From Antedon mediterranea (Eukaryota; Echinodermata; Crinoidea; Comatulida; Antedonidae): a stretch of DNA of 64,000 nucleotides. Each line of letters opens with the position of its first letter. Position 1 is the first letter of the stretch. Under the pieces are notes generated by a model. The model ran no database searches. It was given only the letters and a program-made list of their open reading frames with translations, and was not told the origin of the DNA. Location: contig NC_092670.1 of NCBI RefSeq assembly GCF_964355755.1, positions 19,095,201 to 19,159,200 of the forward strand, written 5' to 3'. The position numbers and the translations under genes were made by a program. Below, piece after piece: positions 1 through 55,400 of this stretch.

Positions 1-216
1 TGCCGTTTCCAATTTGGCGAAATTTGAAACATTTCGACTGACAACAGTCTGATTTCCCTTTGTTCAGATAAAGTACTCGACCTCTTTCAATTAAGCCCTG
101 TGTTTTTAATATCTTAGCCATTAATTTTTATGCATTCTAAAACTGTTTTAATCTTATAAAATTGTTTAATTTACTTTGCCTAAACAAAAATGTTGATAAT
201 TATTTTATTGGGGAAG

Positions 217-287
217 ATGACGGCCCTCTATTAAGAGATGTTCTTCTTGACAAAATTAAAGAAAACCGACTACAGATAAATGACTAG
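217..287 (+). CDS. STING-like gene, copy 1: last exon only
   Basis: Only the final coding exon of a STING (stimulator of interferon genes) paralogue is in the window; the rest lies to the left. The translation contains LLRDVLLDKIKENRLQIND followed by TAG at 285-287. It aligns with the last exon of the intact copy A (LLRDVLLNNINNDRVQID), so it is the C-terminal end of the ligand-binding domain. Copies A and B have a polypyrimidine tract plus AG directly before the codon for Gly; that AG is missing here. The next AG (215-216) keeps the phase but drops two residues, so I place the start at 217. No interferon-type C-terminal tail follows. The gene could be intact or decayed; the window cannot decide. 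Confidence 0.7.
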
Positions 288-1065
288 AATTGAAGCGAAT
301 GTCTAATAAATTTGTCACGATGGGCAGTATCATGAGTTTTTAATAGACTGTGGAGATTGTTAATATTAAAATGTTTATGTAGGCCTAGATTATTTTTGTT
401 TACAATTGAATAGATTCATTTATTGTGATTTTTTATTTTATTTAAATTCAATTTTGTATATAGTGTATGTATTATTATGAAACAATGTTTTAGGTGAATG
501 ACTACCAGTTTTTTTTAACTTTTTCATTTCATGGGTCAGTTAGTTCTAGTGAACATGACCATTTTCAGTATATTAAGTACATTGCTGCCACAGTGTATAA
601 ACTTTAAAAACAGACAGTATTGTATATATTTCATTTCATTCTTTAAGACTCAACCGTGACACAGGTCAAAGTTGTTAGATTGTTTTCATTTCCTGTAAAT
701 ATTTTACCAAATATTTGGAAACATAAATATAAGGAATGATTAAATGATAAACAAATTAGCTAAAATTTGAACTTTAACATTTATATTAATTACTAAATAT
801 AATGTTTAGTTTAGTTCTGCGTCTTTTATCATCTATTTGTAGTTATTGCATATTCATTTTTTTGAATAGAATAGCTAAATAAATATTCAAGAATTGTTGC
901 AATTTATGAGTGGTGTTTCAGGTCTGTAATGCCAATGTTTTATAATATAATAATATCAATTAACAAAATCTGAAAATGGAATCCTTAAAATGACTACCGG
1001 TATAGCCTACTGTATTATTTTTAAGGAGCCATACATTATTTTTTTTTAAACGTATTATATAATCC
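288..1065. other. 3' flank of STING copy 1
   Basis: AT-rich sequence after the stop codon of copy 1, with no further coding homology. A canonical AATAAA lies at 878-883 and could end the copy 1 transcript. The last five bases (1061-1065, AATCC) are the target-site duplication of the retrotransposon that follows. Confidence 0.5.
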
Positions 1066-1473
1066 TGTTAGTAACGCAACGCTTTATTTCTGCTATGTTA
1101 AACTGCACCTGACATAATATGTAAATTTCCCGTTCTTTTGTTTCTATTATTCCCTTTTACTGTGCTGCGCTTGTCGTTGTCGTTGTTCTTTTCATTTCGT
1201 GAGCGGTAATCCTATGCATACCTTTGCATTACACCAGACAGGCCAGTGATGTAAGTTCGTTATTTGCTTCCTTTGATTACTCTCTTTAGTTTAGTTTAGG
1301 CTTAATACCATTTCTACATTTTGCTAATTTAACCTGGATACATTGTAGTTCTTTATTGTATTATTTTGTTACATTTTCAGTTTGAACCACAATAAATCAA
1401 TTGTGAAGTGCAAAACCTGGTTGGAAGTTTTTTTTTTGTATACCGATTAACGTACGACGCTACGAGCGTTACA
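1066..1473 (+). repeat. 5' LTR of BEL/Pao element
   Basis: Starts TGTTAG and ends TTACA. It matches the 3' LTR over its full length with five internal substitutions plus one at the last base, and two short indels that I could count (a GTT unit and a TTTAG unit). It carries an AATAAA near its 3' end. The first pol-polyprotein ATG is only about 15 bp downstream, which leaves a very short leader. I could not assign the primer-binding site to a particular tRNA. Confidence 0.92.
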
Positions 1474-1487
1474 GTTCAAAATCAAGA

Positions 1488-4051
1488 ATGTCTCATACAG
1501 AATCTGAGGTTGCACGTATGAAGTCCAAGCGTGGATACGCTAGGGGAGCTGTTACCCGAATTATGGGTACCGTGCAAAAATTGATGGCAAGAAAGGAAAA
1601 CCTTTCCCAAGTCCATGAACGAATGGAGGAGGTGGAAACCTTGACGGAGGCGTTTGCAGCTGCACATGCAGACTATGTAATGTTGTTAAAGGATGAGGAG
1701 GCCAAGCAGGAAGCGGAGGTTTATCAGAGAGAATTTGTCACGAGAATAAACGACTTCTGTGATGATATCGGCACATGGATCGCCAGTGTTGAACACTCTG
1801 AGCAACATAAGTCTGTTTCGGAAGTTGGCAGCCGCTTTTCACTAATTTCAATCACATTGCCTTGGATGAAGCGAGAGCTAAGGCTAGGGCGGAGAAAGCT
1901 GCACTTAAAGCTGAAATACAAGGCTTGGTGGAGCAAAAATCTTTAGAACAAGAGCAATTCGAATTGAGACGAATAAAACCGGCGCGCCAGATGGAACTTG
2001 AAACCCAGCGTTTTCAGGCTGAGATGAAATTGGCGCTAGAAGATCATCACGCAATGATTGAGATGGGAAGACAAGAGTTGGAGCTCGATCATCGCCGTCG
2101 AGAGATGGAATTAAGTGCTAAAATGGCGAAAGCTGATGCAGTCCAGAAGGTCTACACCGAAGTTATTGAGACTGAAACTCAACCACGTTATCATTCTACA
2201 CCGGAGGATTTAGTCCTACCAACTATACACCTACCTTCATTTGATGGCCGACATCTCGATGCGTCAAGGTTTGAACGCAACCCATCTAAACCCACTGAAC
2301 CGATACTCCAAACACCTAAAGCAGACGATCCTTCAGTTAGAAAAAAGTCTGATTCACCAGCACTAAATACATTGCACCAACCGGAAGAATTGTCGAATAC
2401 CATATGCCAGATGTTAGCCGATTCTCGATTACACCAGCAATCTCTTGTGGAGGCTTTAAATCTACCGAAAAATGAGCTACCGATGTTTGATGGTAACCCG
2501 CTGCATTACTGGTCCTTTATTAGAGCATTTGACAATGCTATAGACAGAAAATCAACGGATGATGGAGCAAAGCTTATATTCCTGTTGCAGTTTTGTACCG
2601 GAAAGGCCAAAACCTTACTACAGTGCTGTCTAATGAAGGAACCAGCTGAAGGTTATCGTCTGGCAAAAAAATTGGAAAGATTTGGCAATAACGACAACAT
2701 AGCACAAGCCTGGATCGACAAAATAACAAAAAGAAAGAACTTTAGAGACGAACTTGACCTACAAGATTTCGCGGATGACATAAGATGTTGTCAGGAAACG
2801 TTAGAATCAATGGGATATTTAAGTGAGCTTGAAAACCGTAGAAGTCTTTGTACGATAGCGGAGAAGTTACCAAATTATTTAAAAACACGTTGGCTAAAGA
2901 AAAATTATGATATTAAAACTAAGATGAAACAAGCTCCAAATTTAGATGACATGGTAAAATTTATCACTGCTGCTGCTGAGGAAGCAAATGATCCGATCTT
3001 TGGCAAGTTGGTTCGCAAGGATCGACGTGATAAACAGAAGCAGAATACAAGCTACAGTGCGCAGTCCATACATATTCCTTCATCAAAAAAGCCCGAGGTA
3101 CCACCTGTAAACCCACCTAAAGAAGATGAACGCTGTGTATACTGTGGGCATAATCACTATGTTACGTTCTGCAAATCATTCAAAGCTCTGCGGGTTAAAG
3201 ACAGGCTAGCATTTGTTCAGTCGAAGCGGTTATGCGTTAATTGTTTCAAACCTGGGCACATAGGAAAGGAGTGTTTGCGTCAAATTACTTGCGACATAGA
3301 TGACTGTGGTAAGAAACACAGCAAATATTTGCATATTCCACGTTACGTAACCAATTCTCCACCTAATCCACCTAATCCACCTAACTCTTCACCTCATCCA
3401 CCTATCCCTACAGTGACTACAGCACCAACTACCACCGCCACTCCTCTGATGCAAGCGGCATTAGTTCAAGGAAACAGCAAGTTTATTCAAGCAAATCGTG
3501 AAAGGGTGGCGTTGCCGATTGTTGCCGTCCGTGTACGTGGCAAAGATCCGAATTCATATGTTGACACTTATGCTTTAATAGATACAGGCGGAACATTTAG
3601 TTACTGTACTGAGGAATTAGCTGACAGACTACAAGTGGTAAGGCAGAAGTGTACGGCGGAGCTTACTACAATTGAACAGAAAAATATTTTGATAAATACG
3701 GAGCTGATAAGCCTTAACCTGTCCAATTTAGAAAACACATACACTGCACGTATGCCACAAATAATAGTGAGACACTCTCTCAACCTAGGCCTAGATAATC
3801 TAGCATGCCATGAAGACTTGATAAAGTGGCCTCATCTTGCCGATATACAGTTACAACCAATTCTGGACGTAACAGAAGTTCAGCTTCTCATTGGCCAAGA
3901 TATGCCAGAACTATTGTGTCCACAAGAAGTGCGTAAAGGCTGGGCAATAAATGGCCCAATCAATAAAGATGTTAATCAGCCTCGATCAAGTCACCATGTG
4001 CAACTTAAAGCAACCTATGAACAGTCTCTGTTGGAAGCTGAATACAAGTAA
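1488..4051 (+). pseudogene. BEL/Pao gag-like region and aspartic protease (frameshifted)
   Basis: Two overlapping open segments. 1488-1946 encodes the N-terminal coiled-coil-like part. 1862-4051, in the -1 frame, continues it with a Lys/Glu/Ala-rich helix, a DUF1759-like domain (about residues 190-370 of the longer segment), two zinc knuckles (CVYCGHNHYVTFC and CVNCFKPGHIGKEC), a Pro-rich linker, and a retropepsin-like domain with IDTGG. Sequence similarity suggests a single ancestral reading frame broken by an indel between roughly 1.75 and 1.86 kb; a programmed -1 shift is possible, but I see no convincing slippery heptamer. The frame breaks again close to 4051, where pol homology continues in another frame. 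Confidence 0.85.
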
Positions 4052-5579
4052 TCCCAGCGCCGAAACTACCTTATCCATCAATGATCACAGGGTATTGCAT
4101 TTATGGGAAGACTCCATTAGTCTAAAAGATGACCACTATTCTATGAATATTCCATTCAAGCACAGACCACCAAACCTACCTGATAATCGTCAGATGGTAG
4201 ACCGTAGATTGTACCTGTTGGGTAAACGATTGACACGAGACCCAGTTTTGAAGAAAAAATACGAAACTGAAATTCATAAAGTACTTGCTGATTGACACGC
4301 AGAACTTGTTCCAGAAGAGGACCTCTGCAGAGCTGACGGTTGTGTATGGTACCTCCCGCATCACCCGGTGTTTAACCCCAAGAAGCCGGACAAATGCCGA
4401 ATCGTCTTTGATTGTGCTGCTAGGGCAAATGGCACCTCGTTAAATGATCAGGTACACCAAGGACCAGATTTGACCAATAAACTAATCGGCGTCCTCCTTC
4501 GTTTCCGACAAGAGGCTGTTGCGTTCACAGCCGATATCCAAGGCATGTTTCACCAAGTTGTTGTAAATCCCGCCGATCGTAACGCACTGCGGTTCCTATG
4601 GTGGAAAAATGATGACCCATACAACGTGCCTTTAGAGTATAGAATGACTGTTCATTTATTTGGAGGAGTTTGGAGCCCAAGTTGCGCCAATTATGCTGTT
4701 CATCGGACTGTCGAGGATAACGCAAGTGAATACAGCAATGCTGCAAGGCAGACAATATTAAGCGTAACTTTTACGTAGACGATTGCTTAAAGTCTGTAGC
4801 GTCTGTTGACGAAGCCATATATCTCGTACATGAAGTTAAAAGACTATTGCAGTAGTGTGGAGGGTTTCACCTCAACAAGTGGATGTCGAATAGCCGGGAG
4901 GTTATCTATTCTCTACCTCAAGATGAGTGGGCCACAGGATTAAAGAACATTAGTTTCGACAGCTTACCATGTGTGCGAGTCCTTGGAAGGCTTTGGAATA
5001 TTGAGCAAGACAAGTTCCAATACGATATTCAAGTTGCTGTTAAACCTATGACACGTCGCGGAGTGCTAAGTATACTCAACTCTGTGTACGATCCACTTGG
5101 TTATGCAGGACCCTATGTACTGCGAGGAAAGATGATATTTCAGCAACTATGCCGCTGCAAATACGACTGGGATGATCCCATACCAACTGAGAGTGCTGAT
5201 CAGTGGAATCGATGGCTCATTGACCTTCCTACTATAATGGATCTGAAGGTACCACGTTGTTTTAAGCCCATTGGGCTTCGCATCAAATCCAGCCAACTAC
5301 ATCATTTTGTCGACGCATCCGAAGCTGGATACGGGGTAGTAACGTATCTTAGAATGATAGATTCCTACGATAAAAGCCATTGTAGTATTCTGATGTCCAA
5401 ATCGAGACTTGCACCTTTGAAGACCACAACCATCCCAAGGTTGGAGTTGACCCCAGCCGTCGAAGCAATCAAGTTAGACAAGTTGTTGCCGCGTGAGCTA
5501 GAAATTCCGCTGTTGGAATCCACCTTTTGGTCGGACAGCATGATCGTTTTATGGTATATTAAAAATGATGAGCGTCGCT
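4052..5579 (+). pseudogene. BEL/Pao reverse transcriptase and RNase H N-part (broken)
   Basis: Reverse transcriptase homology runs from about 4050. The frame containing CRIVFDCAARANG is stopped by TGA at 4293-4295, before that motif. The conserved block ending in LRFLWW follows. The frame is lost near 4750, and the catalytic FYVDD (4769-4783) lies in the next frame. A TAG at 4853-4855 precedes the HLNKW segment, and 4883-5573 is open and covers the connection and RNase H start (HHFVDASEAGYG, with its catalytic Asp). The reading is cut at 5580 by the hAT element; the frame is continuous with 7179 onward if the insertion and one target duplication are discounted. At least four lesions make this copy non-coding. 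Confidence 0.88.
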
Positions 5580-7170
5580 CAGGGGTGGCGCCAGGATCTT
5601 CCCGACGCGGGGGCTACATTCCCCGACGAGGGGGCTATGCGAGCGAAGCGAGCATCACAAGGCTGGGGGCCAGGGGGCCGGCAAGGGCCCCCGGTGGGGG
5701 TCCAGGGGGCGAAGCCCCCGGAAGCAACGCGTTCTAGCGTCATTTGAGGTCATTTTAATCAGATTTAGGGTAGCCATTTTTTCCATTTTTTTATAATGCA
5801 TAAATAAAATACTGCGTGCAAAAAACGATGCGCGATGACTGTTTCAATCCATATTTTTCAATTTAAAAAATAAAAGTTCAAAGAAAATTTAGAAAAATAG
5901 AGTTGGAGGTCCTGGAAATTGGACTTATTATACTTCAAAACATGAAACAAAATATATAAGTCCCTATCATGGTTGTGACTGAGCTAAGAAATGTTTGAAA
6001 AATAGAGATGTTAGGTCCCGGAAAATGCACTTCTTGTACTTCGAAATATGACCAGCTTTATTGTTGGGGCTGAGCTAAGAAAATGTTTAAAACTAGAGCT
6101 GCAGGTCTTCAAAAAATTGCATTTTATACTTTGGAAACATCAGGCCCAGAGGCTTAAAAAACGCAAGCGTAGACCTTTTTCAGTCGGGGAAATAAGTTTA
6201 TTCCACCCAAGTGTATGCCTGCGTACCATCTGGACTTCCGAGTGGTGAGAAATTCATGACATACAGGACATTGAAAATTTAATAACTTAGCTATAATAAG
6301 ATGTTGGCTAAGCGAAAATGGCATGTTTTTTTGTTTAGTAATGAATGAAATATTTATTTTAGGTGCCCCACGGTACAGAAGGTTACTTGTAAATTAAAAA
6401 ATTGGTGAACATACGAACAATTAACATAATTCGTTTTTGCTGTAGTGTAGCGTACGTCGACACAGTACACGACGTAACCGTCTGTAAACTTCGCCTGGAA
6501 AATAACTACAGTACACATTTTGGTCCCTGGATAGAACATGATATCGCGACCCAACGTTGAACGATCGTACAAAGGGATACCACCAGACAAGTGCGTACCT
6601 ATAGCTATTGTTTAGTAGTAAGTTAGATCGCTGGCAATAATGAATGCATAAAGTGCATAATATCACTCTGACGTAGGCCTACTCTCACGGTCAATGAAAC
6701 GTCGAGGTTTTCTAGGCGCTGAAGCTACGAAGTGAACGCGAACGAATTATATTCCCCGACAAAAAGTACCCGAACCGTCGGTAAACTTCGCCTGGAAAAT
6801 AACTACATTACACATTTTGGTCCCTGGATGGAACTTGATATCACGCGTCTCGACCCAACGTTGAACGATTCGTACAAAAGGATACCGCCAGACAAGTGCG
6901 TACCTAGCTAATGTTTAGTAGTAAGTTAGATCGCTGGCAATAATGAATGCATATAGGCCTAAATTGTATAATAGCACTCTGACGTACTCTCACGGTCAAT
7001 GAGACGTCGCGGTTTTCTAGGCGCTGAAGCTACCAAGTGAACGCGAACGTTTTTTACTGTATATTATATTCCCCGACAAAAAGTACCCGTGTTCCCCGAC
7101 GGGGGTGCTAGGCTCCCCGACGAGGGGGCTAGAGCCCCCGTAGCCCCCCCCCCCGCTGGCGCCACCACTG
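5580..7170. mobile_element. Non-autonomous hAT element nested in BEL/Pao
   Basis: A 1591-bp insertion with terminal inverted repeats CAGGGGTGGCGCCAG (5580-5594) and its near-perfect complement (7156-7170, 14 of 15 bases). An exact 8-bp target duplication GCGTCGCT lies at 5572-5579 and 7171-7178. CAG-starting ends and 8-bp duplications are hAT hallmarks. Both subterminal regions carry repeated G- and C-runs around CCCCGACG. There is no transposase: the short open frames inside have no recognisable domain. The interior contains a tandem duplication (separate entry). It is younger than the host retrotransposon because it interrupts its RNase H domain. Confidence 0.92.
6476..7089. repeat. Approx. 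300-bp tandem duplication inside the hAT element
   Basis: Two adjacent copies (6476-6772 and 6773-7089) share the run from AAACTTCGCCTGGAAAATAA through TTTTGGTCCCTGG to CCCCGACAAAAAGTACCCG, with scattered substitutions and small indels. The second copy has an extra AT-rich segment near its end. The divergence suggests the duplication is older than this insertion and is part of the family structure. Confidence 0.85.
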
Positions 7171-7178
7171 GCGTCGCT

Positions 7179-8908
7179 CCCAGACTTACGTAGCAAACCG
7201 TGTTTCGGTAATCAGGGAACATAGTTTTCCGCACCAATGGCGATACATTGACACAAAGAGTAACCCTGGAGATGACGCATCCCGAGGTTTGACTGCAAGC
7301 AAGCTGGTTAATAACCGCAGATGGGTTAGCGGACCATCATACCTGTGGAAAAATGAAGAAAGATGGCCAACTCAACCACCCCTTATATGCGCAGAACTTG
7401 AAGCAAGGGCGGAAATTAAAAAATCGTCAAAAATCTACACAGTTGTGACAAATAATAACGCTACTGTCGACCAACTCTTAAAACGATACTCTTTCTGGTA
7501 CGGGCTAAAGCGAGCTGTGGCATGGATTATGCGCTTCAAAGCCTTTATGTTGAAACCTGCATGCCTAATTACTGGGAAACTAACGGTAAACGAGCTTAAG
7601 AAAGCAGAAGAATCCATCATCTGGTATATTCAAACAAATAGCCTGAAGCCTGAGCAGATTAATTCGCTTAAAAGGTTGAATCCTATCCTGATAGAAGACG
7701 GTCTGTGGCGTGTGGGAGGTAGATTAGAAAAGGCAAATGTATCATACCAAACCAAGCATCAAGTGTTGCTACCAGCAAATCACCATGTTACTAAGTTAAT
7801 TGTCGAACATCACCACTTGAGAACGGGTCACGCTGGAGCTGAACGCACTTTGGCTGAAACCAGACTAAAGTATTGGATTGTTCGAGGTCGCCCCACCGTG
7901 AAAGGTATCTTGTCCAAATGTATAACATGCAGGAAGTTGAGAGCAAGAACAGAAACACAAATGATGGGAAATCTTCCTGAAGCCCGGGTTAAATCAAATG
8001 AAACGCCGTTCAATAGAGTAGGTATCGACTACTTTGGACCGTTTATAATAAAAAGAGCCCGTAGCGAATTGAAAAGATACGGATGTATCTTCACTTGCCT
8101 CGCCACTCGAGCCATTCACTTAGAGGTTTCACACAGTTTGGACACCGACTCGTTCATCAATGCCTTACAACGCTTTATTACACGTCGGGGCGAGCCAGCC
8201 GAAATTCGCTCAGATAACGGCACGAACTTAGTAGGTGCTCAACTGCAATTAAAGCAAGCACTTAAAGGATGGAACCAACATAAGATAGGTGACTTCTTGC
8301 AACAAAAGGAAATTGAGTGGATATTTAATACTCCTACTGCGTCATATGGGTGGAGCCTGGGAGAGGCAAATTCGTACGGTGCGTTCCGTACTGTGCGTGG
8401 CGTATTGGGTCAGCAGAAACTGGATGATGAAGGATTATCAACACTGATGTGCATAGTAGAAAGCACAGTGAACAGTCGTCCCATAACTAAACTTTCCAGT
8501 GATCCAGGTGATCCAGATGATCCCTCGCCCCTTACACCTAACCACCTATTGCTTATGCGTGCTGGACCATCATTACCTCCTGGCATGTTCGTTAACCAAG
8601 ACTTGTATAAGCGTCGTTGGCGTCAAATTCAGTATATGGCGGACATCTTTTGGAAACGATGGTTAAGTGAATATCTTCCTGACCTACAACAGCGCCAGAA
8701 ATGGTTAAAACCAAGAAGAAATCTACGGCAAGGGGACCTGGTTCTAATGAAAGCAGAGAACACACCTCGTTACCAATGGCCTTTAGGATTGATCACCAAG
8801 ATTTACCCCGGCACCGACGGACGGGTTCGTTCTGTTGAAGTTAAAACCCAAACGGGTGTATATGATAGGCCAATTGTTAAAATTTGCTTACTAGAAGGAT
8901 GTATGTAA
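7179..8908 (+). CDS. BEL/Pao RNase H C-part and integrase (open segment)
   Basis: After the hAT insertion the pol frame is open to the stop at 8906-8908. First comes the end of RNase H (KSNPGDDASRG), then the integrase. The zinc-finger region holds HHHLRTGHAG and CITCRKLRA (HHCC type). The DDE core has Asp in GIDYFGP and Asp in RSDNGTNLVG. The third acidic residue probably lies in SYGWSLGEA, where the family usually has a GGVWE-like motif, so the catalytic neighbourhood looks altered. The C-terminal part has the GDLVLMKAENTPR strand typical of BEL/Pao integrases. This is the only long undamaged part of the polyprotein, and it lacks its own start. Confidence 0.88.
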
Positions 8909-9060
8909 TTAAATGTAGTTAGATTTAGAAAATCAGACAATTAATGATACACCATAATATTGATAAATTCTTAATTTGCAAATCCGTGCTAAAAACATGG
9001 CACTGGGTTACTTATTATTTATTACTTGATAGGAAGAATACATTATGTATACAATGTATT

Positions 9061-9070
9061 GGGGCCGGGG
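9061..9070 (+). promoter_or_regulatory. Polypurine tract of BEL/Pao element
   Basis: GGGGCCGGGG directly abuts the first TG of the 3' LTR. This is the expected place for the plus-strand primer. The two central pyrimidines make it imperfect. Confidence 0.6.
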
Positions 9071-9480
9071 TGTTAGTGACGCAACGCTTTATTTCTGCTA
9101 TGTTAAACTGCACCTGACATAATATGTAAATTTCCCGTTCTTTTGTTTCTATTATTCCCTTTTACTGTGCTGCGCTTGTCGTTGTCGTTCTTTTCATTTC
9201 GTGAGCGGTAATCCTATGCGTACCTTTGTATTACACCAGACAGGCCAGTGGTGTAAGTTCGTTATTTGCTTCCTTTGATTACTCTCTTTAGTTTAGTTTA
9301 GTTTAGGCTTAATACCATTTCTACATTTTGCTAATTTAACCTGGATACATTGTAGTTCTTTATTGTATTATTTTGTTACATTTTCAGTTTGAACCACAAT
9401 AAATCAATTGTGAAGTGCAAAACCTGGTTGGAAGTTTTTTTGTTGTATACCGATTAACGTACGACGCTACGAGCGTTACC
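9071..9480 (+). repeat. 3' LTR of BEL/Pao element
   Basis: Full-length partner of the 5' LTR, ending TTACC rather than TTACA and followed by the target duplication AATCC at 9481-9485. It ends 387 bp upstream of the start codon of STING copy A, so its own promoter or enhancer would fire toward that gene. Confidence 0.92.
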
Positions 9481-9817
9481 AATCCTATAAAGCATGGCCT
9501 ATTATAATTTGTATCAGCGTTTCACAATGTCATGTCCGCATGAAACATTATACTGACATTAACGATAAACTCGTGGAAAATCTAATTTTAGATACTACCG
9601 TATTGTATTGTTTGAAGAGATAGCCTTCAACTGTGTACGCGCCATTATAAACATCGATCGCCAAGAGAAAGTGACAGGCCTAGGTCCGTTTCTACTTTGG
9701 AAACCATTGTCAACATTTATCTTAGATTTGTTGTTCCTTGTATTTTTGTCATATATCATTTTTCAGTATTTCATTCTTCGGGATTTTTTTCTTTTTATCC
9801 TGCATAAGCCTACTGAG

Positions 9818-9826
9818 TATATAAAG
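9818..9826 (+). promoter_or_regulatory. TATA box of STING copy A
   Basis: TATATAAAG lies 42-50 bp upstream of the proposed ATG at 9868. With normal spacing it would start transcription near 9850 and give a very short 5' UTR. A possible IRF-type half-site (AAGAGAAAGTGA) sits about 150 bp further upstream. Regulation through it is inference. Confidence 0.55.
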
Positions 9827-9867
9827 TTACAGCATCCACATGCAGCAGTAGACCATTTACAACAACA

Positions 9868-12632
9868 ATGGCTGGGTAAGGTTTTTTCCTATTTTCTATA
9901 CTGATTGTAATGAAACTGTATAGCTACAGTATACGATTTTTTTAATTTTAGATCTAGTTAATTAACATATTAACATTTCAACTTGGACAGGAGTAGAATT
10001 TCATACCCAGGTGTATAAATGGGTACCCGGTTAGATCAAGACACAACTTTGCGCTGATTACTAGCTGCATTGTATGTTTCCATACGTGTTTGAGGCAGAA
10101 ATGAACGGGTAATAATGTTCAGCGCTTAGAGGTTTCACAACATTAGGCGCTATATAAATCCAGGATATTATTATTATTATTATTATTATTAAATGCTATT
10201 TGTTTCAACTAAAGGCGGAAAGAGATGAAGAATATTGGGTTACACAAATTAAACATGTATTATTTTTAATCGATTTGAGATATGGATGGATATGGAAAAA
10301 TTACAAAAATTATAAATTAAATTACGTTTACAGGACATTGAACAATAAACATTTATTAAGAGCACTAGTACATACTCACGTTTACTTTATTTTACAAAAT
10401 TTAAACAAAAAATTCATATAGAAAATTATCTGTCTGCAAACAAAATGTAAACATATACCGTAGACAATTTTTAACCAATTTTGTCTAGAAATTCTTGATA
10501 TTGAGGTTGAAAGGGGTAGGTGGTGTGAGGTTTTAAGGGGTAGGTGGTGTGAGGTTGAAAGGGGTAGGTGGTGTGAGGTTTTAAGAGAAAACAGAATATG
10601 TAAATTATGTCATAAGAATGAGATAGAAGATGAATATCACTTTCTGTTAATTTGTCCGTTCTATAATGAGTTACGTCAGGAGTTTTTATTACCAGTTACG
10701 TTTTATAATTTCCCTTCTGAAAGTAAGTTCATTATTTTAATGGCTTCAAGAAATATTACTTTATTTGAAAATATGTCTACATTAGTTTTATTTCATTATA
10801 GCCTAAGTGCTGTGCAAATAAATGCCCTAGACCAAGAGTCTAGGGAAAAAGAAGAAGTATTGGATATATGATATTGAGAATAGATTTTGATCACACTTTT
10901 TTTAACTGTCTTCATAGATATCCACCTTCAGACAATTTTGGCTTTGGAGAGTTGTCGAAAAAAAGAGGAGAATGGAAACGATACGCGGCATACTTTGCTA
11001 TTTTGGTATTCGTTGGTAATTTAGTTAGGATGGCGCCTAAAGTTCCACTTCAAAAGATAAAAGAAAGAAACTTTAATTTTAACAGGACAAATCTCAATCA
11101 AGAAGACTTATACATTGTCCGTAGTTACAACCATGTGTTTTCTCTGCCTATAATGTTTTGCAGTGTCATCTTGGGCAAATTGTGTATGTGCTTGTTTGTG
11201 CTCTTCGAGGAGTTCAAACACAAGAAAAGTCGCCATAATAACTCCTTCGTCCAGTTGCTTAAAAATTGTTTCCAAGTTTTTTTGACGATGAATTTCATCG
11301 TGGGATTTTTTATTTTATTGGGTGCCATATTCCTGATGAGAAGTGCCGATGTAGATCTTTTTACCATTCACTGGTCACACAACTGGCCGGATATAATAAC
11401 GTCAATTGGTGTTTCAATCATTGCGAACTACGCACTTGGTTTCAAGGTTTGTAACATTTTATTTATTTTTAGGTATGTAAATTACATCCAATATAGTGGT
11501 TAATAATTGATTTCGCACTTTTTTTTTTACATTTCATAGTCACTGTCAGTTGTTGAGCTGAGTGAAATTCATGAGTCTAGCAACATCAACGTTGCACAGG
11601 GCCTAGCATGGAGCTATTTCACAGGATATCTAGCAATTATTCTGAAAGGTTTGTGAATTAACAATTTTCTTTATAAAAAGAAATACAACAAAATAACAAT
11701 AAGAAAACAAAAATAATTAATACATATAAGCTAAAAAAAAAAAAAAAACAGCGCAAAAGAACAATTGTTTGAATATTTGTATTTTTCCTTAGATCTTAAG
11801 AAAACTATAGAGAAGGATGAAAGGTGGAAAGAAGAATTGAACAAGGGAAACCTACAGTGCAAGTTTTATGCTATTGTACCACTGAACTGTAAAATTCCTT
11901 CCAAACTCGGAGAGTGTCCAAAAAAACACAGAGGAATTACCTTTGAGGGCAAGCTACCAACTCTGTATGTCGATCGTGCAGGTGTGAAAGACAGGCCGTA
12001 TGTTAATTCAGTTTACAAAATTGACAATGGAAAAGGAGAAGTAAGTATTATTATAGATTAAGATGTTGGTGTCTACCAAATAATAACAAATCACCTCAGA
12101 GTTAATAGAAATTGCGGCAGTGCAGGGAATATTTTAGCTTTATATTGTAAACTTGCATAGTGTATCAATTATTTTTATTTCAGTCAAAGTTTGCCATTAG
12201 TGAATATGTGACCATCATTGATACACTGTTCCAGATGTCTCGGTGGACTGCTATTGAACAACACGTACGTGACGAGCAGTGTCACTTACTCGTTAGGAAA
12301 CTTCAGGAATTGATTGACGAAAATGAAGATTATCAAAATAAATGCGTAATCGTTACTTTATCAGGTATAAACATTCTAATCATAATTTGCTTTTTAGGAT
12401 TTTATGGATGGACAGCTATGTGAATATTAAAATGGCAATGGGGAGGGGGCGATGCCACAACATTCAAATCGAAGTCCAAATCCTACCATCTTTACCAGAA
12501 CAAATAAACAGCTAACATAGAATACAGTGTTAAACATAAATATTTTATTGCTTTTCAGGTGAAAATGATGGGAATCTTTTAAGAGACGTTCTTCTTAATA
12601 ATATCAATAACGATCGGGTGCAAATCGACTAG
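9868..12632 (+). CDS. STING1: STING-like cyclic-dinucleotide receptor, copy A (complete)
   Basis: Six exons with consistent phases: 9868-9875, 10918-11446, 11540-11648, 11793-12040, 12184-12364, 12559-12632; 382 aa (human STING has 379). Exon 1 encodes only MAG. Exon 2 holds four membrane segments (about residues 24-41, 75-99, 113-143, 161-178) and the STING signature EEFKHKKSRHNN. Exons 3-6 form the ligand-binding domain: NVAQGLAWSYFTGYL, VPLNCKIPSKL, DRAGVKDRPYVNSVYKID, EYVTIIDTLFQMS. Residues matching human S162, Y163, G166, Y167, R232, R238, Y240, E260 and T263 are all present (204, 205, 208, 209, 277, 283, 285, 305, 308). The protein ends at the domain boundary: there is no TBK1/IRF3-recruiting tail. 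In the family, this ER protein binds cGAMP or other cyclic dinucleotides and signals. AATAAA follows at 12806. Confidence 0.93.
10200..10870 (+). mobile_element. Relic of a non-LTR retrotransposon (LINE C-terminus) in STING-A intron 1
   Basis: The translation after 10590 reads ICKLCHKNEIEDEYHFLLIC, the C-terminal zinc-knuckle motif of LINE ORF2 proteins, and runs to a TGA at 10868-10870. The segment 10200-10421 reads as a matching upstream part. It is broken by frameshifts and a minisatellite. It fills most of the first intron and ends 47 bp before the exon 2 acceptor. Confidence 0.7.
10513..10583. repeat. Three-copy G-rich minisatellite
   Basis: Three head-to-tail copies of a 24-26-bp unit around GGGGTAGGTGGTGTGAGGTT inside the LINE relic. 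The expansion has interrupted the LINE coding sequence. Confidence 0.85.
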
Positions 12633-13600
12633 GCTCATGCAGACATTTCGAAGATTTCTTAATTCATTGAAAATACACTAAAATGATGTATATACAGTTT
12701 TAATATATTTAGGTTAATCCTTCTGGTTTACTATATTGTTAAATACCAAACTACATTCACTGCGATATTGCCCCTTGACAGTCTACTCTCGGGGTGGGGG
12801 AATTCAATAAACATCCCAAAACATTGGAATCTTGTATGCATGTCAGAAAGGTAAATTGTGTTGAATTCCATTCTAGATGAATTTGTATCAAACACTATTG
12901 ATTTTACGCCACATTTACACCATAAAATACGGGGTTACAATATTATAAACCTCTCTATTCTCTGAAAACACCATTTTTAGGGAAATTCACAAAGTTCCAT
13001 TTTAGATTCAGTTTGTAGGTTTATGATTTACATATGAAATAGCGGTAATATAATGTATGTACTGTACTCTGAACAACAACTCTATACAATTATTATATGT
13101 TCAAGAGCTAAAGGTTTATTACAGTAAGATAGCATTTTTAAAGATAATAAGGTTAGTTCATTCTTTATTGATAAAAAATATTGAAAATCTCGGTTCATGA
13201 TCAGCTTTTGAAATTTTCCTTTTTACTACTGTAGTTGTGATGTTATGTCTTTGTATACAACAATAATATAGTAAACGAAGACGATAGTTTGGTTGTAGTT
13301 TATTGTAGCTCAGAATAGCATTACATTGCATTGTATATAGACATTAGTAATCATTAATACGCCAGGTATGTGGTAATCATGGCTATGAGGATAGCTAGCC
13401 TAGATACCAGTAAGTACCTGTAAGTTCAATCACTTGTAAAATGTAATAGGCCTATAATAACACTAGTATCACTATTTCTATACTTTCACCTATCTTTCAA
13501 CAAATGTTTCTAGTAGGATCATTTCATTTTTCTTTCTGTTCATTCGAAATTGTTTATTATAATACTTTCAGATCCAGTAATAATATAGGCAGGTTTAACA
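12633..13600. other. Spacer between STING copies A and B
   Basis: Holds the 3' UTR of copy A with AATAAA at 12806-12811, then AT-rich sequence with no coding or repeat homology I can recognise. No clear TATA box precedes copy B, unlike copy A. Confidence 0.5.
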
Positions 13601-15641
13601 ATGTCGTCTCGGTAAGGTTTTTGTCTTTTTTGGTTACCCGGCCGGTAACGGATATTTATATTAAGGCAGTTGCGTCATTGACACGATTTATATTTCTAAA
13701 TATTAAGCATGTCGATATTTTATATTAAATCAACTGTAAGATTGTTCGGTTATTACATTGACATTTGCTTATTGTAGACTTAAAATACATTTTCAGAAGA
13801 ATATCTGTTCACTAATGAACTATAGTGTAGGCCTAGTATTTACGAAATAAACGAAAGAAAAAGGTATTTTATTTTGTCAATAGAAATTCAGTAGTAAAGC
13901 GTTTTGAAAGTGGCTTTGGAGAGGTACCAAAAAAGCGTGGAAAGAATAAGCAAATTGTAGCAACTTTTGTTAGTCTGGTATTCATGGCTTATTCATTTTT
14001 GGTGTGGATGGCAGTTCCACTGGAAACGCTGGTTGATGATGATTTATACTTGCTATGCATGTACAACTCTGTATTTGCTCTACCTATGGTGTTTTTCGGT
14101 GCCATAACTACAAAATTTGTTTTGTGCATTTTTGTGTTGGTCGAGGAATATAAGCACATACGAAGTCGTCACAATAACTCAATCCTCCTGCTGTTTAAGA
14201 ATTGTTTTCAAGTATTTTTGACGAAAACATTTGTCATGGGTTCTGTAGCCTTAATTGCTGTTGTGCTTTGGATGAGAAGTGACAATAAAGATCGTTTTGA
14301 TAATCACTGGTCGACCAATCGCCTGAACGTCATAACACCAGTCGGTGTGTCAATAATTACAAACTACATGTTTGACTTTAAGGTATGTATTTAAATTACT
14401 GGTTTCAGAATATTCTCTCTACAAAAGTCATCAAGTTAATAAGTTATTTGATTGATTGTGTTTATGAATTTCACAGACACTGTCAGTGGTTGAGGTCAGT
14501 GAAATCCATGAATCTAGTAACATCAATGTCACACAGGGTCTTGCATGGAGTTATTTTACTGGATTTTTGGAAATCATATTAAAAGGTTCACACATCATTT
14601 ATAGTACACTGTATTTTTTAAATATATTATGGTTCGGTCTTGGCTAATCTATTCATATTTCGAATTCCTGAATTAAGTGTAGCTTTTTATAGGCCAGCTA
14701 CTTTATTTTAAAAAATGTGTTAAATATTGTTTTATAGACGGGTTTACGATACTAGGGTTTCCATAATAAATAGTTATAACAATAATTTTATCAGATCTTA
14801 AAGGAACTATAGAGAAGGATGAAAGATGGAAACAAGAATTGGAAAATAAAAGGTTAAAATGCGTATTCAATTGTATTGTTCCTTTGAACTGCAAAGTGCC
14901 TTCTTTGCTTGGGGAGAGTGAAAGACATGAAGGCATTACATTTGAGAGTAACTTGCCGCCTGTGCTCAAAGATCGTGCTGGTGTTAAAAGAAAGTACACT
15001 ATTTCAGTCTACAAAATTGACGATGGAAAAGGAAGAGTAAGTATTCATACCTATTAGATTTTATATTATTGGATGTGCCCTCTCTTCGCATTCTCAAAAT
15101 CGTTCATTTTTCTATAACCTGTCACATAGACTTAATGTGCCCGACTTGTGATCCCGTCTCAGTACTGTAAGAAGTTCAAAGTTGATCATAATAATAATAT
15201 TATCTTTTTAAAGTCACGCTTTGTCATTTGTGAATATGTTCCAGATGTCTAAGTTTACTAATCTTGACAAAAAGAAACGTGAAGAGCAATGCCGCCTATT
15301 TGTCAGGAATCAGGAATTCAGGAATTAATTGATGACGAATATAAAGAAAAGTTTGTGATTGTAACTTTGTCAGGTGAGCTTAATATTGTTCTACCATAAG
15401 GATGGAAAAGGGGAAACCATCCACGGATGTTTGCCTGCCCGAGATCCGTAAATACGTCTTTTTAGCAATTTGACAAAAAACAAAAACGTGCACATTTTAT
15501 TCATTATTGATATTATCCTTTGAAATTTTATGATTGTCATTTTACTTTTTAGGTGAAGATGATCACCTTTTGAGAGATGCTGTTTTTGACAAATTTGGAG
15601 AAGATCGACTTCAAATTCCCAGTAGAGAAACAGATGTATGA
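13601..15641 (+). pseudogene. STING-like paralogue, copy B (truncated/decaying)
   Basis: Same six-exon plan as copy A: 13601-13611 (MSSR), 13884-14382, 14477-14585, 14795-15036, 15214-15373, 15553-15641. Exons 1-4 are open and in phase and give four membrane segments, EEYKHIRSRHNNS, NVTQGLAWSYFTGFL, VPLNCKVPSLL and DRAGVKRKYTISVYKID. The loop after the first membrane segment is shorter than in copy A, and the Tyr matching human Y167 is Phe. In exon 5 a 20-bp deletion (near 15238) removes the segment with the T263 equivalent and creates a TAA at 15250-15252. A 5-bp insertion about 70 bp later restores the frame, and a 6-bp deletion is in frame. The product would stop at about 299 aa. The exon 3 donor (GTTCAC) is also weak. 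A dominant-negative or membrane-only role is conceivable; decay is more likely. Confidence 0.88.
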
Positions 15642-25800: not shown

Positions 25801-28800
25801 ATTATTTATTTAATTATACTGGCCAACCACTTCATGCAGTCAAGGACTGGTCTCCCAGAGGGCCCAGTTATGATCAGTGGCTGTGATGTACTAGTACACC
25901 GGGGTAACCCACTACTTGTCTCAAAAGATTTACTAGGTTCTTTAAAGTGCACATGAGCCAGATGTGTACCTTGGACCTACGGTTTATAGTCCTTATCAGA
26001 GAAGACTCATTCTACCACCAGAACCATGGAGCGAGTGAGCCTCGAACCCTAAGATTGACTTGTTCTTTGTTTATGTACAATCAGCGAATTTTGTTTCTTC
26101 TTAACATTGAATTTCCCAATTTATTCTTCTTTTTTTTTTTTTTTTTTTATTTCATCATATAATAAATTACAAAGGAAAAACATAATCAAATAAAAAATTA
26201 AAATAAAAAGCAACAAACAAAAACAACAAAGATATCCATCTAACAAATTAAATAAAGGTTCATAAAAATTATTCTACTCTCTAACCATTTCATATTTGAT
26301 TTATAAATTCTTCTAATTTTATCCATTTTCTATTAAAAATACTGTCCTCAAAATTCTGATGATAAATAAATTTTTCTGTTTCATAAAACCTTTTTAACTC
26401 GTTCATAACCATTTTGATAGTTGGCTTACATTTAACTAGTTTACATTTATGAATAAATGATTTTACAATTAGAATAATTGCATTAATGGCTTTTAAATTA
26501 AAAAACTGATGCGCATCTTGGTATCCGAAAATTATGCTCTCTTTACTAAAAATAAATTGCACTCCAGTTTTTTCTGAAATTTTTTCCTGGAGGAGGTTCC
26601 ATATCCTTTTTACTATTGGACAATTACAGAACAAATGCTGAATGGTTTCAATTTTACCATCTCCAAATGAGCACATTAAAGTTTCTTTTATATTCATTTT
26701 AAATAATTGTTCATTTGTTGCAATTATTCTATTTACAATTTTGTATTGAAAATATATTAAAGCAATATTCATTGTACACGTATGTGGAGCTAGGTAGATT
26801 GTTTTCCATTGTTCGTTATTGAATACAAATTTATTTTCTGCCCATTTCTTTTGTGCTTTCCATGATTTAAACATTGAGTTATTTAAAACATCATAAAAAA
26901 TACGACATCCCTTTCTTTGTTGAAAGAGTACTTTTATATGAAATGGAATATCTGGCAAAACTGTTTTTTTAATTTCACATATCATTAAATTGTTAAATTT
27001 ATTCTTTTTGATGTTTTGTCAGGTGGAGCTTCTTATTGTACGTGCCTTATCCAACATCCTGGTATTAGCATGGCCTAATGTGGCTGAAAATGCACAGAAT
27101 TGGGCATCGAGATCAGCAAACCATTCAGGCTTCATGAGAAGGATCACATCAGAATATTGCCAGATTAAAGATGTTCCCAATTTTGCCAAAGACAAAATGC
27201 TTCAGAACAGAGGTAATAGTGCAAATACAATTTGCAGGTTGACTAGGTATGAAGTCATTACATTTTTGTATAAAATGTTTTTGCACTAATAATACTAACT
27301 TGATTCTTGATAGTAGTGGGAAAAGGGGTAGGTAGATAGATAGAATATTTTTCGTGTTGCACACCAAGGAACAAAGATAACCCACTAAGTCATTCGCTTC
27401 AGGTTTGCCCTTGTCGTGAATTGGGCAGTACCGTGAGAGAAAATCCCTAGTACTGCGTTCTTAACGTGCCCTAGAGCCATGTTGCATGCAGGACCAACAG
27501 CTTAATGTCTCATTCGGAAGACTGTGCGCTATACATATATTTCAACACGATGATGTGGTAGACTAAAGAAAACCTACCTACCTTTCACGGTTCAGCACAC
27601 AACACAGTGACTTGCCACTAGTTTGCCCTTTAAAAACCCACATTGATCTCTTCCTAATACTGATCAAATAGTAAGTAGATACCTTATTGCCAGGTAGAGA
27701 ATTCCAGAAATTATTGATTCAAACTTTAAGCACCTTTAATGATGATTTGATTGTTTAGATAAAATGTGGAGTATTGTCTTTTGTATCAAATATACTGGAA
27801 TGATGTTTTTCTAAATACATTTCTTTCCAGCTAAACCATGTATGAAGAGGACTCTTCATCTGTTGGCAAACCATGTAGATTCTGTTTCTGGTGAAGTATC
27901 TAAGACAAAGCAGATTGTCTTCCAATCACTGAAAGAATGTATAGAAGTAACATTGGCATTATTCCCTGTCTACATTAGCCAAGCAGGTAAGATAAAAGAC
28001 ACCCACCCCTGAGCAGTTACGACCCCTCTTCCTTCCTCAAATTTTGATACCCCATGTGTATAGATGTGTGCAATCGGCAACAATTTACAACGAATGCTCT
28101 CTCTCTTTATAGTTATACAGTATTTATTTAAAACTTAATCATATCTACCTTAAAGCATGCATAGTTTACTTATTATCAATTTATTTTAAACTTAATAAAT
28201 ACAAAATGTAACCTTATTAATTTACATTTTTTTTAGATGTTGTTGATGAAATTATGAGTTTCTACCTTGCAATAATCCAAGGACTCAGAGTGCAGATGGG
28301 CGTGGCTAGTATCCAGTCAACCATAACCGTTTTCATGAACTTATTTACCAGGTAAATGAACCTTAAATGAATTTTTGATTGATTGATTTTTTAAATGATT
28401 ATAATTCTCTCTACCAAAATATGTTTTCAAAGCAAATGACATTTTTTTTCCTGCTCTTTTAGGGAACAATTGACTGCTATTATTCTGAATGAAGGCAGCT
28501 CAGGAGTACGAGTTGTAGAAAAGTAAGCATCACTATTATCTTAATTTAGCATGGCCACAATCGCCATTCTATGTTCCATATAAACACATATTTGAAAGCA
28601 ATTTAAGACTTTATGAGATGTGCCAATATATGGACATGATGATGTCATATCACTACGATATTTGGCTATATTACTACCATATTTGGGCACATCACACTTT
28701 TTTGTGAAATTAGTTTGATAGTGTAGACAGAGCTTTACAGAGAAACATTAATTTTTATTCTTAAATCTTTTTTTTTCTTCAAAGGTTTTTACAAATTTTG

Positions 28801-52436: not shown

Positions 52437-52497
52437 ATTTCTGCTCTTTCGCTGTTCTTTTTTTGGAAGTCCGTAAGGAAATCAAAAAACAATCAAT
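52437..52497 (+). other. 5' UTR of the first coding myosin exon
   Basis: Follows a good acceptor (CTCTTTCTTCAG at 52425-52436) and ends ATCAAT directly before the ATG. Confidence 0.6.
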
Positions 52498-55400
52498 ATG
52501 GGTGATGATCCAGAACAATACTTGAGGCTTGACCCCAAGGCCCAGATGGAGGCTACAACTCAGGCTTTTGACAGTAAGAAGAACTGCTGGGTTCCTGATG
52601 AGAAAGAGGGCTTTGTAAAAGCTGAGGTCCTCTCCACAAAGGGAGACATGGTTACAGTAAAGACCGTTACTGGAAAGGTCAGTACTACTGTCACCTATCA
52701 TAGATGTATCTATGTATACATACTTTTATATTGGTTTAAACTTATATTCCATTCAATCTGTGTGATAAATAAAGCTAAAAAAGTCCATTTCTATATAATA
52801 TAAATATCTGTTTCTTCAACTTAAATCACAGCCAAGGGAAATAAATAAATGCTGTTTTATCTAGAGAGCATGGACTTACTCTAAAAGAAAATTTACAAAT
52901 GATGCAAATTATTAAGTCATCAAATAAACAATGCCTATATATCCTGTATATAAAAACATTTTCAAGATTAAGAAATAACAATTTTGTTTTATTTTTATAG
53001 CAAGTAACACTTAAAAAGGATGATACACAACAAATGAATCCTCCCAAGTTTGACAAAAGTGAGGATATGGCCAGTATGACCTTCTTGAACGAAGCTAGTG
53101 TACTCGGAAATCTCAGACAAAGATACCAATCCGGTCTCATCTACGTAAGTTACTTTATTTTTTTTATAATAGTGATGATGTAATATATGCAAAAATGTAT
53201 TGTGTGCGCCAATTCAAGCATTTTACATTGATGTAGATTGATTGAATTGATTGAAATTTATATTTATACTGGGTAACCTCTTCAATCAAAGACTGGTCTC
53301 CCAGAGGGCCCAGTTGGTGATCAGTGGCTGTGATGTACTAATACACCGGGGTAACCCCCTACTCGTCTCGAAAGATGTACTAGGTTCTTTTAAAGTGCAC
53401 ACGAGCTAGATGTGTACACTGGACCTACGGTTTATAGTCCTTATCCGAGAAGACTCGTTCTACCACCAGAACCATGGAGTGAGTGAGCCTCGAACCCCTG
53501 CCGATGTTATGGCTACGTAATTACGGTTCCACTGTCTTAACCGCTCGGCCACTCACTCACCCGCCACTCGCTCGGCCACTCACTGTAGCCACGAGAAATA
53601 AGGTAGTCCGGTTTTCGCAAGAAAAGAGAATAATCTCTGTTCAAGCCACTGTTGCCTCTGTGAAAAAGTAGTCGGGTTGAAAGCTTACCAACCATTCTGG
53701 TGGCTACGACCCTGTTTAAAAATAAAAAATAACCAGGTTAAAACAATTTAAATTAAGGATTTCAAATTAGTTTTAAATCAGTTTAAATTTGAAGATCTGA
53801 TTTTGAAGATTAGCTTAGAGCAGGTTCAGATATGGGAATCATCGACTTCCAATCTCTAAAAGATACAGTAATGAAGATGAAACCAAATGTACTTTATGTA
53901 ACCAAAACGCTACTGGAGATGAATACCACTATTTGTTCATTTTCCCCTTACTTTGCCCCATGCGCCAAATATACATTCAAAAGTATAATTATATCACCTG
54001 CCCAAATAGAACCAAAATGCACCAATTACTTAATACCAGATAAAAAAAAAAAAATCAAACTAAATTTATTCATGAAATTTTGTATTTGTTTTAGTTAGAT
54101 GTTGCTTTTCGATATATCATTTATGTATAAATAAGACCAAATATTTATGTCTGGAAGTGTTTATTTTTGTATTATATTGAAAGAATGTTCTTTCATACCC
54201 TGAAAAAGGGTCAATAAAGAAATAAAGAATCATTGTCATTGTCAGCAAAAATAAAATAGAATTTGTGAATGACTAGTTGTAAAACAACTTAAAATTAAAC
54301 TAGCCTAGTAATCTAGCAAATACAATTTCAAAATGTGCGCCTTGATTGACTAGTACAGTAGTGGAATAATAGGCCTACCTGGATAATGATTATAAATTTG
54401 AACTAGAATAATGATATCGTGAACGATATCAAATAAACTACAGCGAGAGGATAAAGAACACCTCCAAACAAATGACATAAATAAAATAGATCATGTAATA
54501 AATTAGCCCCTAGTTAAAGGGTTCATTCAGATATGTTGGAATGTCATATCTCGGCCATGTGGACAGAACAGCTGACATGGTGTTTCCTTATATGGAAAGG
54601 TCTGTATGTTGATGTGATGGTGTACTTCATTTGACCCTTTGACCTGAGCCCTGAACATGTGCTAATAGCTTCAATGTCCATCCTTATCAATATTGTTATA
54701 TATTTCATGTACTGCCATAACCATGCATAGATATTTAATATATATAACAATGTTGTACAGTAGTCCTACAGTATATGCAAAGAAGGTCAATGAATGATGC
54801 AGTTCAGCATACAGTAAACGCACAATGCCAGTACTGTACATCTTGGAAAGTTGAAAATAATATCGCTCAGTGTATTACTGAAATGTAATTTTGTAATTTT
54901 CAACACATCCAACAAACTTATTTTAACTCACCGATTACAGGATAAACTAAATGTTCGTATTAAACGGAAGTCTCATTTGAGACTTAGGAGGAGTAAAAAC
55001 AGGTCAGGTTTGAATACGGGACAGTTCTGCAGCATATGAAAAATCTATTGGATATGTTGGCATGGCAATAACATTACAATTAATCATGATCTATTTATCA
55101 GCATAGCAGACATTTTTAAACAAAAAGAATGATCAAAAAAAGAACTAAACTAAATTTCAAAGCATTTAGAACCCCGTTTCTACTAGAACCAGAAAGTAAA
55201 CGGCCATTTTAAAGGTCACTGTGTTTGATTTTAAACATTGTAGATAGTAAGTCTATAAATATGAACCCACTTCAAATGAAAAGCAAACACAATACATTGT
55301 AAACCCTCTTAAATAGAATAACTTAAGCTTCTTCTATGTCCGTCGTATTGCTCCCTCTGATAAATGCCAAGGGTACTTTTTTGATAAACTTAAATTTTCC

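Follow-up and report, generated by a model that had tools for sequence, protein, structure and literature searches.

Results

Nine STING units in one tandem array

The window is the whole stretch of DNA that was analysed, 64,000 nucleotides of contig C1 (C1:19,095,201-19,159,200), from a crinoid echinoderm. For the array, the analysis was extended leftward from the window by 29.2 kb, and the searches covered the whole genome (354 Mb, 18 contigs). Gene models for STING were built from homology and splice motifs. Nine STING units form one array of 38.6 kb (C1:19,072,281-19,110,841), all on the forward strand (Table 1). S1, S3, S5, S6 and copy A are intact genes with six exons each and common intron phases, S2 is start-broken, copy B is frame-broken, and S4 and S7 are fragments. 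An earlier note on the window had proposed at least three STING units on the same strand with identical exon phases, in an array that might extend to the left, probably from an invertebrate deuterostome. All of this holds: six of the nine units (S1 to S6) lie in the added 29.2 kb, and the phases are 2,0,1,0,1 in every copy with a traceable frame. The left-edge copy, of which the note had recognized the last exon, is S7. Its exon 5, which contains a stop, is immediately outside the left edge of the window, and its exon 6 has TG as acceptor, not AG.

No N letters, which would mark an assembly gap, occur within the array, which lies on a single contig. Neither a whole-genome Pfam search for STING_LBD nor a genome search that used spliced copy A as the query found STING outside C1:19.072-19.111 Mb, and no further copies were seen in the two flanks of the array. 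The gene to the right of the array matches the exportin Xpo1 domain, and we read it as exportin-6. Near it, a minus-strand open reading frame with a match to zf-RVT (reverse transcriptase zinc-binding; window 26290-27018) is a retroelement relic. The window also holds a coding exon of a myosin heavy chain with a Myosin_N match (52477-52803). Within the array, a tandem repeat with a unit of about 26 bases, TCTTTGACTAATCTTTAATTTCTTAG, fills intron 3 of S3 (C1:19,081,690-19,082,540).

Table 1 STING units and neighbouring features (C1, contig of genome G000; window, position within the window)
Feature	Coordinates	Strand	Description
S1	C1:19,072,281-19,074,781	+	Intact
S2	C1:19,077,498-19,079,350	+	Exons 2-6 largely open; start codon out of frame with exons 2-6
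S3	C1:19,080,731-19,083,578	+	Intact
S4	C1:~19,084,627-19,085,851	+	Fragment; deletion fuses exons 2 and 3
S5	C1:19,087,462-19,090,976	+	Intact
S6	C1:19,092,379-19,094,549	+	Intact
S7	C1:~19,095,009-19,095,487	+	Fragment, exons 5-6 only; exon 6 at window 211-287
BEL/Pao-like LTR retrotransposon	window 1066-9479	+	LTRs 1066-1472 and 9071-9479
TATA-like stretch and first exon of copy A	window 9818-9875	+	8-nt coding first exon, ATGGCTGG
Copy A	window 9868-12632	+	Intact
Copy A exons	window 9868-9875, 10918-11446, 11540-11648, 11793-12040, 12184-12364, 12559-12632	+	Spliced model
Copy B	window 13601-15641	+	Damaged pseudogene, short-lid lineage
Copy B exons	window 13601-13611, 13884-14382, 14477-14585, 14795-15036, 15214-15373, 15553-15641	+	Frame lost in 15214-15373

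Copies A and B and the adjacent retrotransposon

Copy A: The earlier note had called this copy complete, and its spliced exons indeed give an uninterrupted protein of 382 amino acids with four transmembrane segments and a ligand-binding domain (LBD), without a C-terminal tail (CTT). The donor site of exon 1 was set by comparison with S3, S5 and S6, which have a similar layout of a TATA-like stretch and a short first exon.

Copy B: All six exons are present. The frame is lost in exon 5 (SRFVICEYVPDV*); hence, this copy is damaged, as the earlier note had stated.

BEL/Pao-like element: This retrotransposon sits between S7 and copy A and splits the STING array. Its LTRs are 96.8% identical, and a possible target duplication (ATCC) flanks it. 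The reading frames are fragmented, with matches to DUF1759, integrase zinc-binding and core domains, and DUF5641. The element is outside the receptor system. It ends about 390 bp upstream of the start codon of copy A, whose regulation it could affect.

Domains and conserved residues

The STING domain that the earlier note had expected in copy A is found by the family profiles PF15009/PF23417, with E-values of 5e-37 for STING_LBD and 4.4e-10 for STING_TM; in PDB, copy A matches human STING at 9.5e-36 (in both searches, the query was used without the first three residues). For STING_LBD, the Pfam scores are far above the cut-off of 27 bits in all intact copies (A 127.5, S1 136.2, S3 113.7, S5 107.4, S6 118.0). 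For STING_TM, A, S1 and S6 exceed the cut-off of 28.1 bits, whereas S3 (24.3) and S5 (21.3) remain below it at E < 0.001. Hydropathy analysis gives about four hydrophobic stretches. The top PDB matches are human STING and Nematostella STING (5cfp, which we take to be the Nematostella protein), the latter being the best match of S3.

Every intact copy shares S162, Y163, G166, Y167, R232, R238 and Y240 (human numbering) with human STING. These residues include the dinucleotide contacts Y167, R238 and Y240; the pseudogene B carries Y167F. The stop codon lies in exon 6, shortly after the LBD. Neither PxPLRT nor LxIS, the motifs of the vertebrate TBK1/IRF tail, occurs in any copy, and the absence of a CTT is expected for STINGs outside vertebrates (PMC6723221). 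No TIR domain was found by Pfam in the copies scanned.

Lid classes

Canonical lid (S1, S6 and A): The lid reads DRAGVKDRPYVNS, and the human counterpart is DRAGIKDRVYSNS. Within this class, the lid protein is almost invariant (dN 0.00-0.03), and over the whole gene, dN/dS is below 1 (A/S6 0.24/0.52; A/S1 0.26/0.76). Because S162, Y167, R232, R238, Y240 and T263 are kept, these copies are predicted to prefer 2'3'-linked dinucleotides.

Short lid (S3 and S5): The lid NRAGMK-REYTIP is one residue shorter and has the same protein sequence in both copies. Compared with the canonical lid, D237 is deleted and the substitutions V239E, N242I and E260G are clustered; S5 additionally carries T263A and has a different tail. 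Between the lid classes, dN is near dS (S1/S3 0.49/0.57; S3/S6 0.47/0.57) and dS is high; all dN/dS values here are pairwise NG86 estimates. Between S3 and S5, dN/dS is 0.19/0.22 and thus near 1, so both copies could be under relaxed constraint. In coral STING, the linkage preference is switched by changes at the positions equivalent to S162 and T263 (PMC9980059). The crinoid copies do not have the coral-type changes (S162N and T263S), and neither E260G nor the lid shortened by one residue has a direct counterpart in the STING literature compared. A changed ligand preference or affinity is predicted for S3 and S5, although this prediction is uncertain.

Other lids: S2 and S4 share PRAGVT-RRYINL, and copy B has DRAGVK-RKYTIS.

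From the lid classes, the pocket substitutions and the dN/dS contrasts, we infer functional diversification of the STING copies.

Phylogeny, probable gene conversion and duplication

In a tree of ligand-binding domains, the crinoid sequences form one clade (99/99) against the only two outgroups, human and Nematostella STING. S3 and S5 group together (100/99) and are joined by B (91/90). Exon by exon, the divergence between most copies is 10-45%; their intron lengths differ, and the introns are mostly unalignable.

The identity between A and S6 is patchy, from 69.7% in exon 2 to 89.5% in exon 4. In the lid, both genes share 87 bp of exact identity, which reaches the splice donor, and in the lid half of exon 4, dS is 0.04 compared with 0.52 for the whole gene. 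A run of 47 consecutive identical variable sites was not equalled in length in any of 5000 shuffles; the shuffle takes no account of differences in constraint along the gene, and the low dS is independent of protein constraint. The tract suggests gene conversion and, as judged from these alignments, is best read as an ectopic event. S3 and S5 share a similar identical run, but the case for conversion is weaker there because the two copies are closely related throughout.

Exons 4-6 of S2 and S4 show 97-99% identity. Across 1.64 kb with introns and flank, the identity is only 90%, and most of exons 1-3 is missing from S4; the pair is a recent partial duplication of 1.64 kb.

cGAS-like genes and other genes of the genome

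At least 44 Mab-21-domain matches occur in the genome. Twenty of the proteins were read. Nine of them carry a catalytic motif of the type GSS(Y/F)E..(D/E)EFD and, by this motif, look like canonical cGAS-like enzymes. The other 11 (L046-L056; about 440-715 amino acids, on several contigs) form a second type, which is longer and non-canonical and has the motif GS...D.D. Five canonical genes (L037, L039, L041, L042 and L043) cluster at C1:24,121,968-24,246,339, on the same contig as the STING array and about 5 Mb from it. Another of the nine, L045 (C2:2,079,261), joins a cGAS-like nucleotidyltransferase to ankyrin-like repeats in one open reading frame of 882 amino acids, which resembles fusions reported in coral. 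In genomes that have 3-10 STINGs, the cGLRs number more than 20 (PMC9980059), and the crinoid numbers of STING and Mab-21 genes match this pattern. Exons for IRF DNA-binding domains are present at two loci.

Two genes outside these families were also noted. Tektin-1 scores 415 bits with the 8snb chain, presumably from sea urchin, and 279 bits with mammalian chains. The only neurophysin gene found has an upstream exon with MQECCRILLVLFALVSLSTA-CFWRTCPVG-GKR, which is crinotocin. CFWRTCPVG has been published as crinotocin from a feather star, Antedon mediterranea; according to the crinotocin paper, its Trp-Arg motif sets three crinoid species apart from other echinoderms. Together with tektin-1, this peptide places the animal among the crinoids, possibly near Antedon.

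Discussion

We consider it likely that the locus is a crinoid-specific tandem expansion of STING with ongoing birth and death, in which the cyclic dinucleotide receptors have split into two lid classes; for these receptors, we infer expression, ligand and signalling output. The local birth and death that the earlier note had envisaged is visible in the mixture of intact, broken and fragmentary units. The five intact copies would be ordinary four-transmembrane STINGs without the vertebrate tail, each of which most likely dimerises in the ER membrane. They would bind cyclic dinucleotides from the expanded cGAS-like enzymes of the genome, or from bacteria, and may signal via tail-independent routes of the autophagy or NF-kB type. 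The copies would thus divide into S1, S6 and A with the canonical lid and S3 and S5 with the short lid, and gene conversion would hold the lids of A and S6 alike while their transmembrane parts diverge. Tentatively, we go one step further: S3 and S5 may recognise another cGLR product, or heterodimerise with canonical STINGs as modulators, which would give parallel cGLR-STING channels at one locus, with the lid exons homogenised within each class by gene conversion. This is possible, and we do not lean towards it.

The copies could instead be functionally equivalent receptors, retained because of expression level or tissue-specific promoters, with lid differences due to drift. The conserved pocket residues in all intact copies and the homogenised lids of A and S6 agree with such redundancy, as does the apparent promoter and first exon of its own for several copies. 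We nevertheless regard it as unlikely, as the lid classes differ by a deletion together with clustered substitutions, and as dN approaches dS between the classes while it is near zero within S1, S6 and A. It is similarly doubtful that decay is turning S3 and S5 into pseudogenes such as B. Their dN/dS close to 1, E260G, the T263A and altered tail of S5, and the already broken relative B would fit decay, but both copies have complete open reading frames and intact splice sites despite clear divergence (81.7% identity in exon 2), and their lid proteins are identical. An assembly artefact from uncollapsed haplotypes, to which only the near-identical exons 4-6 of S2 and S4 would point, is highly improbable, and haplotype duplication was rejected given the divergence of the copies, their intron differences, the ungapped contig and the truncated structure of S4, with its modest identity to S2.

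The expansion with two lid classes is our preferred reading, and multi-STING genomes are already known from coral and oyster. Of the animal genomes surveyed, 88% have one STING, while coral and oyster have several; the coral Stylophora pistillata has 7 STINGs with different ligand preferences and 42 cGLRs (PMC9980059). The crinoid resembles this coral in having several four-transmembrane STINGs, varying pocket residues among the copies and an expanded cGLR set. It belongs to another phylum, however, and Sp-STING3 alters the equivalents of S162 and T263 (to N and S), whereas the crinoid copies keep both except for T263A in S5 and change by the shortened lid with E260G. The oyster Crassostrea virginica is likewise an invertebrate of the 3-10 STING group (PMC9980059), but the TIR-STING fusion known from oyster is not seen in the crinoid copies scanned. 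Human STING shares the four transmembrane segments, the LBD and the conserved residues listed above, but it is a single copy with a CTT, and its P264 is Ile in the crinoid. Nematostella STING (PDB 5cfp/5cfl) lacks a CTT as well; unlike the short-lid copies, it has a full-length lid and keeps E260. In a literature search of incomplete coverage, we found no crinoid STING array, no short-lid STING class and no STING gene conversion.

At this one locus, natural paralogues separate changes of the lid from changes of the pocket floor, which makes the link between lid sequence and ligand choice directly testable. The most useful point is the contrast with the sea urchins. Crinoids are sister to all other extant echinoderms. 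According to a 2026 paper, cGAS and STING are missing from sea urchins (PMC13043383). That a crinoid has five intact STINGs and numerous cGAS-like genes suggests an echinoderm ancestor which already possessed the cGAS/STING pathway, so that its absence from urchins would be a loss and not the primitive state.
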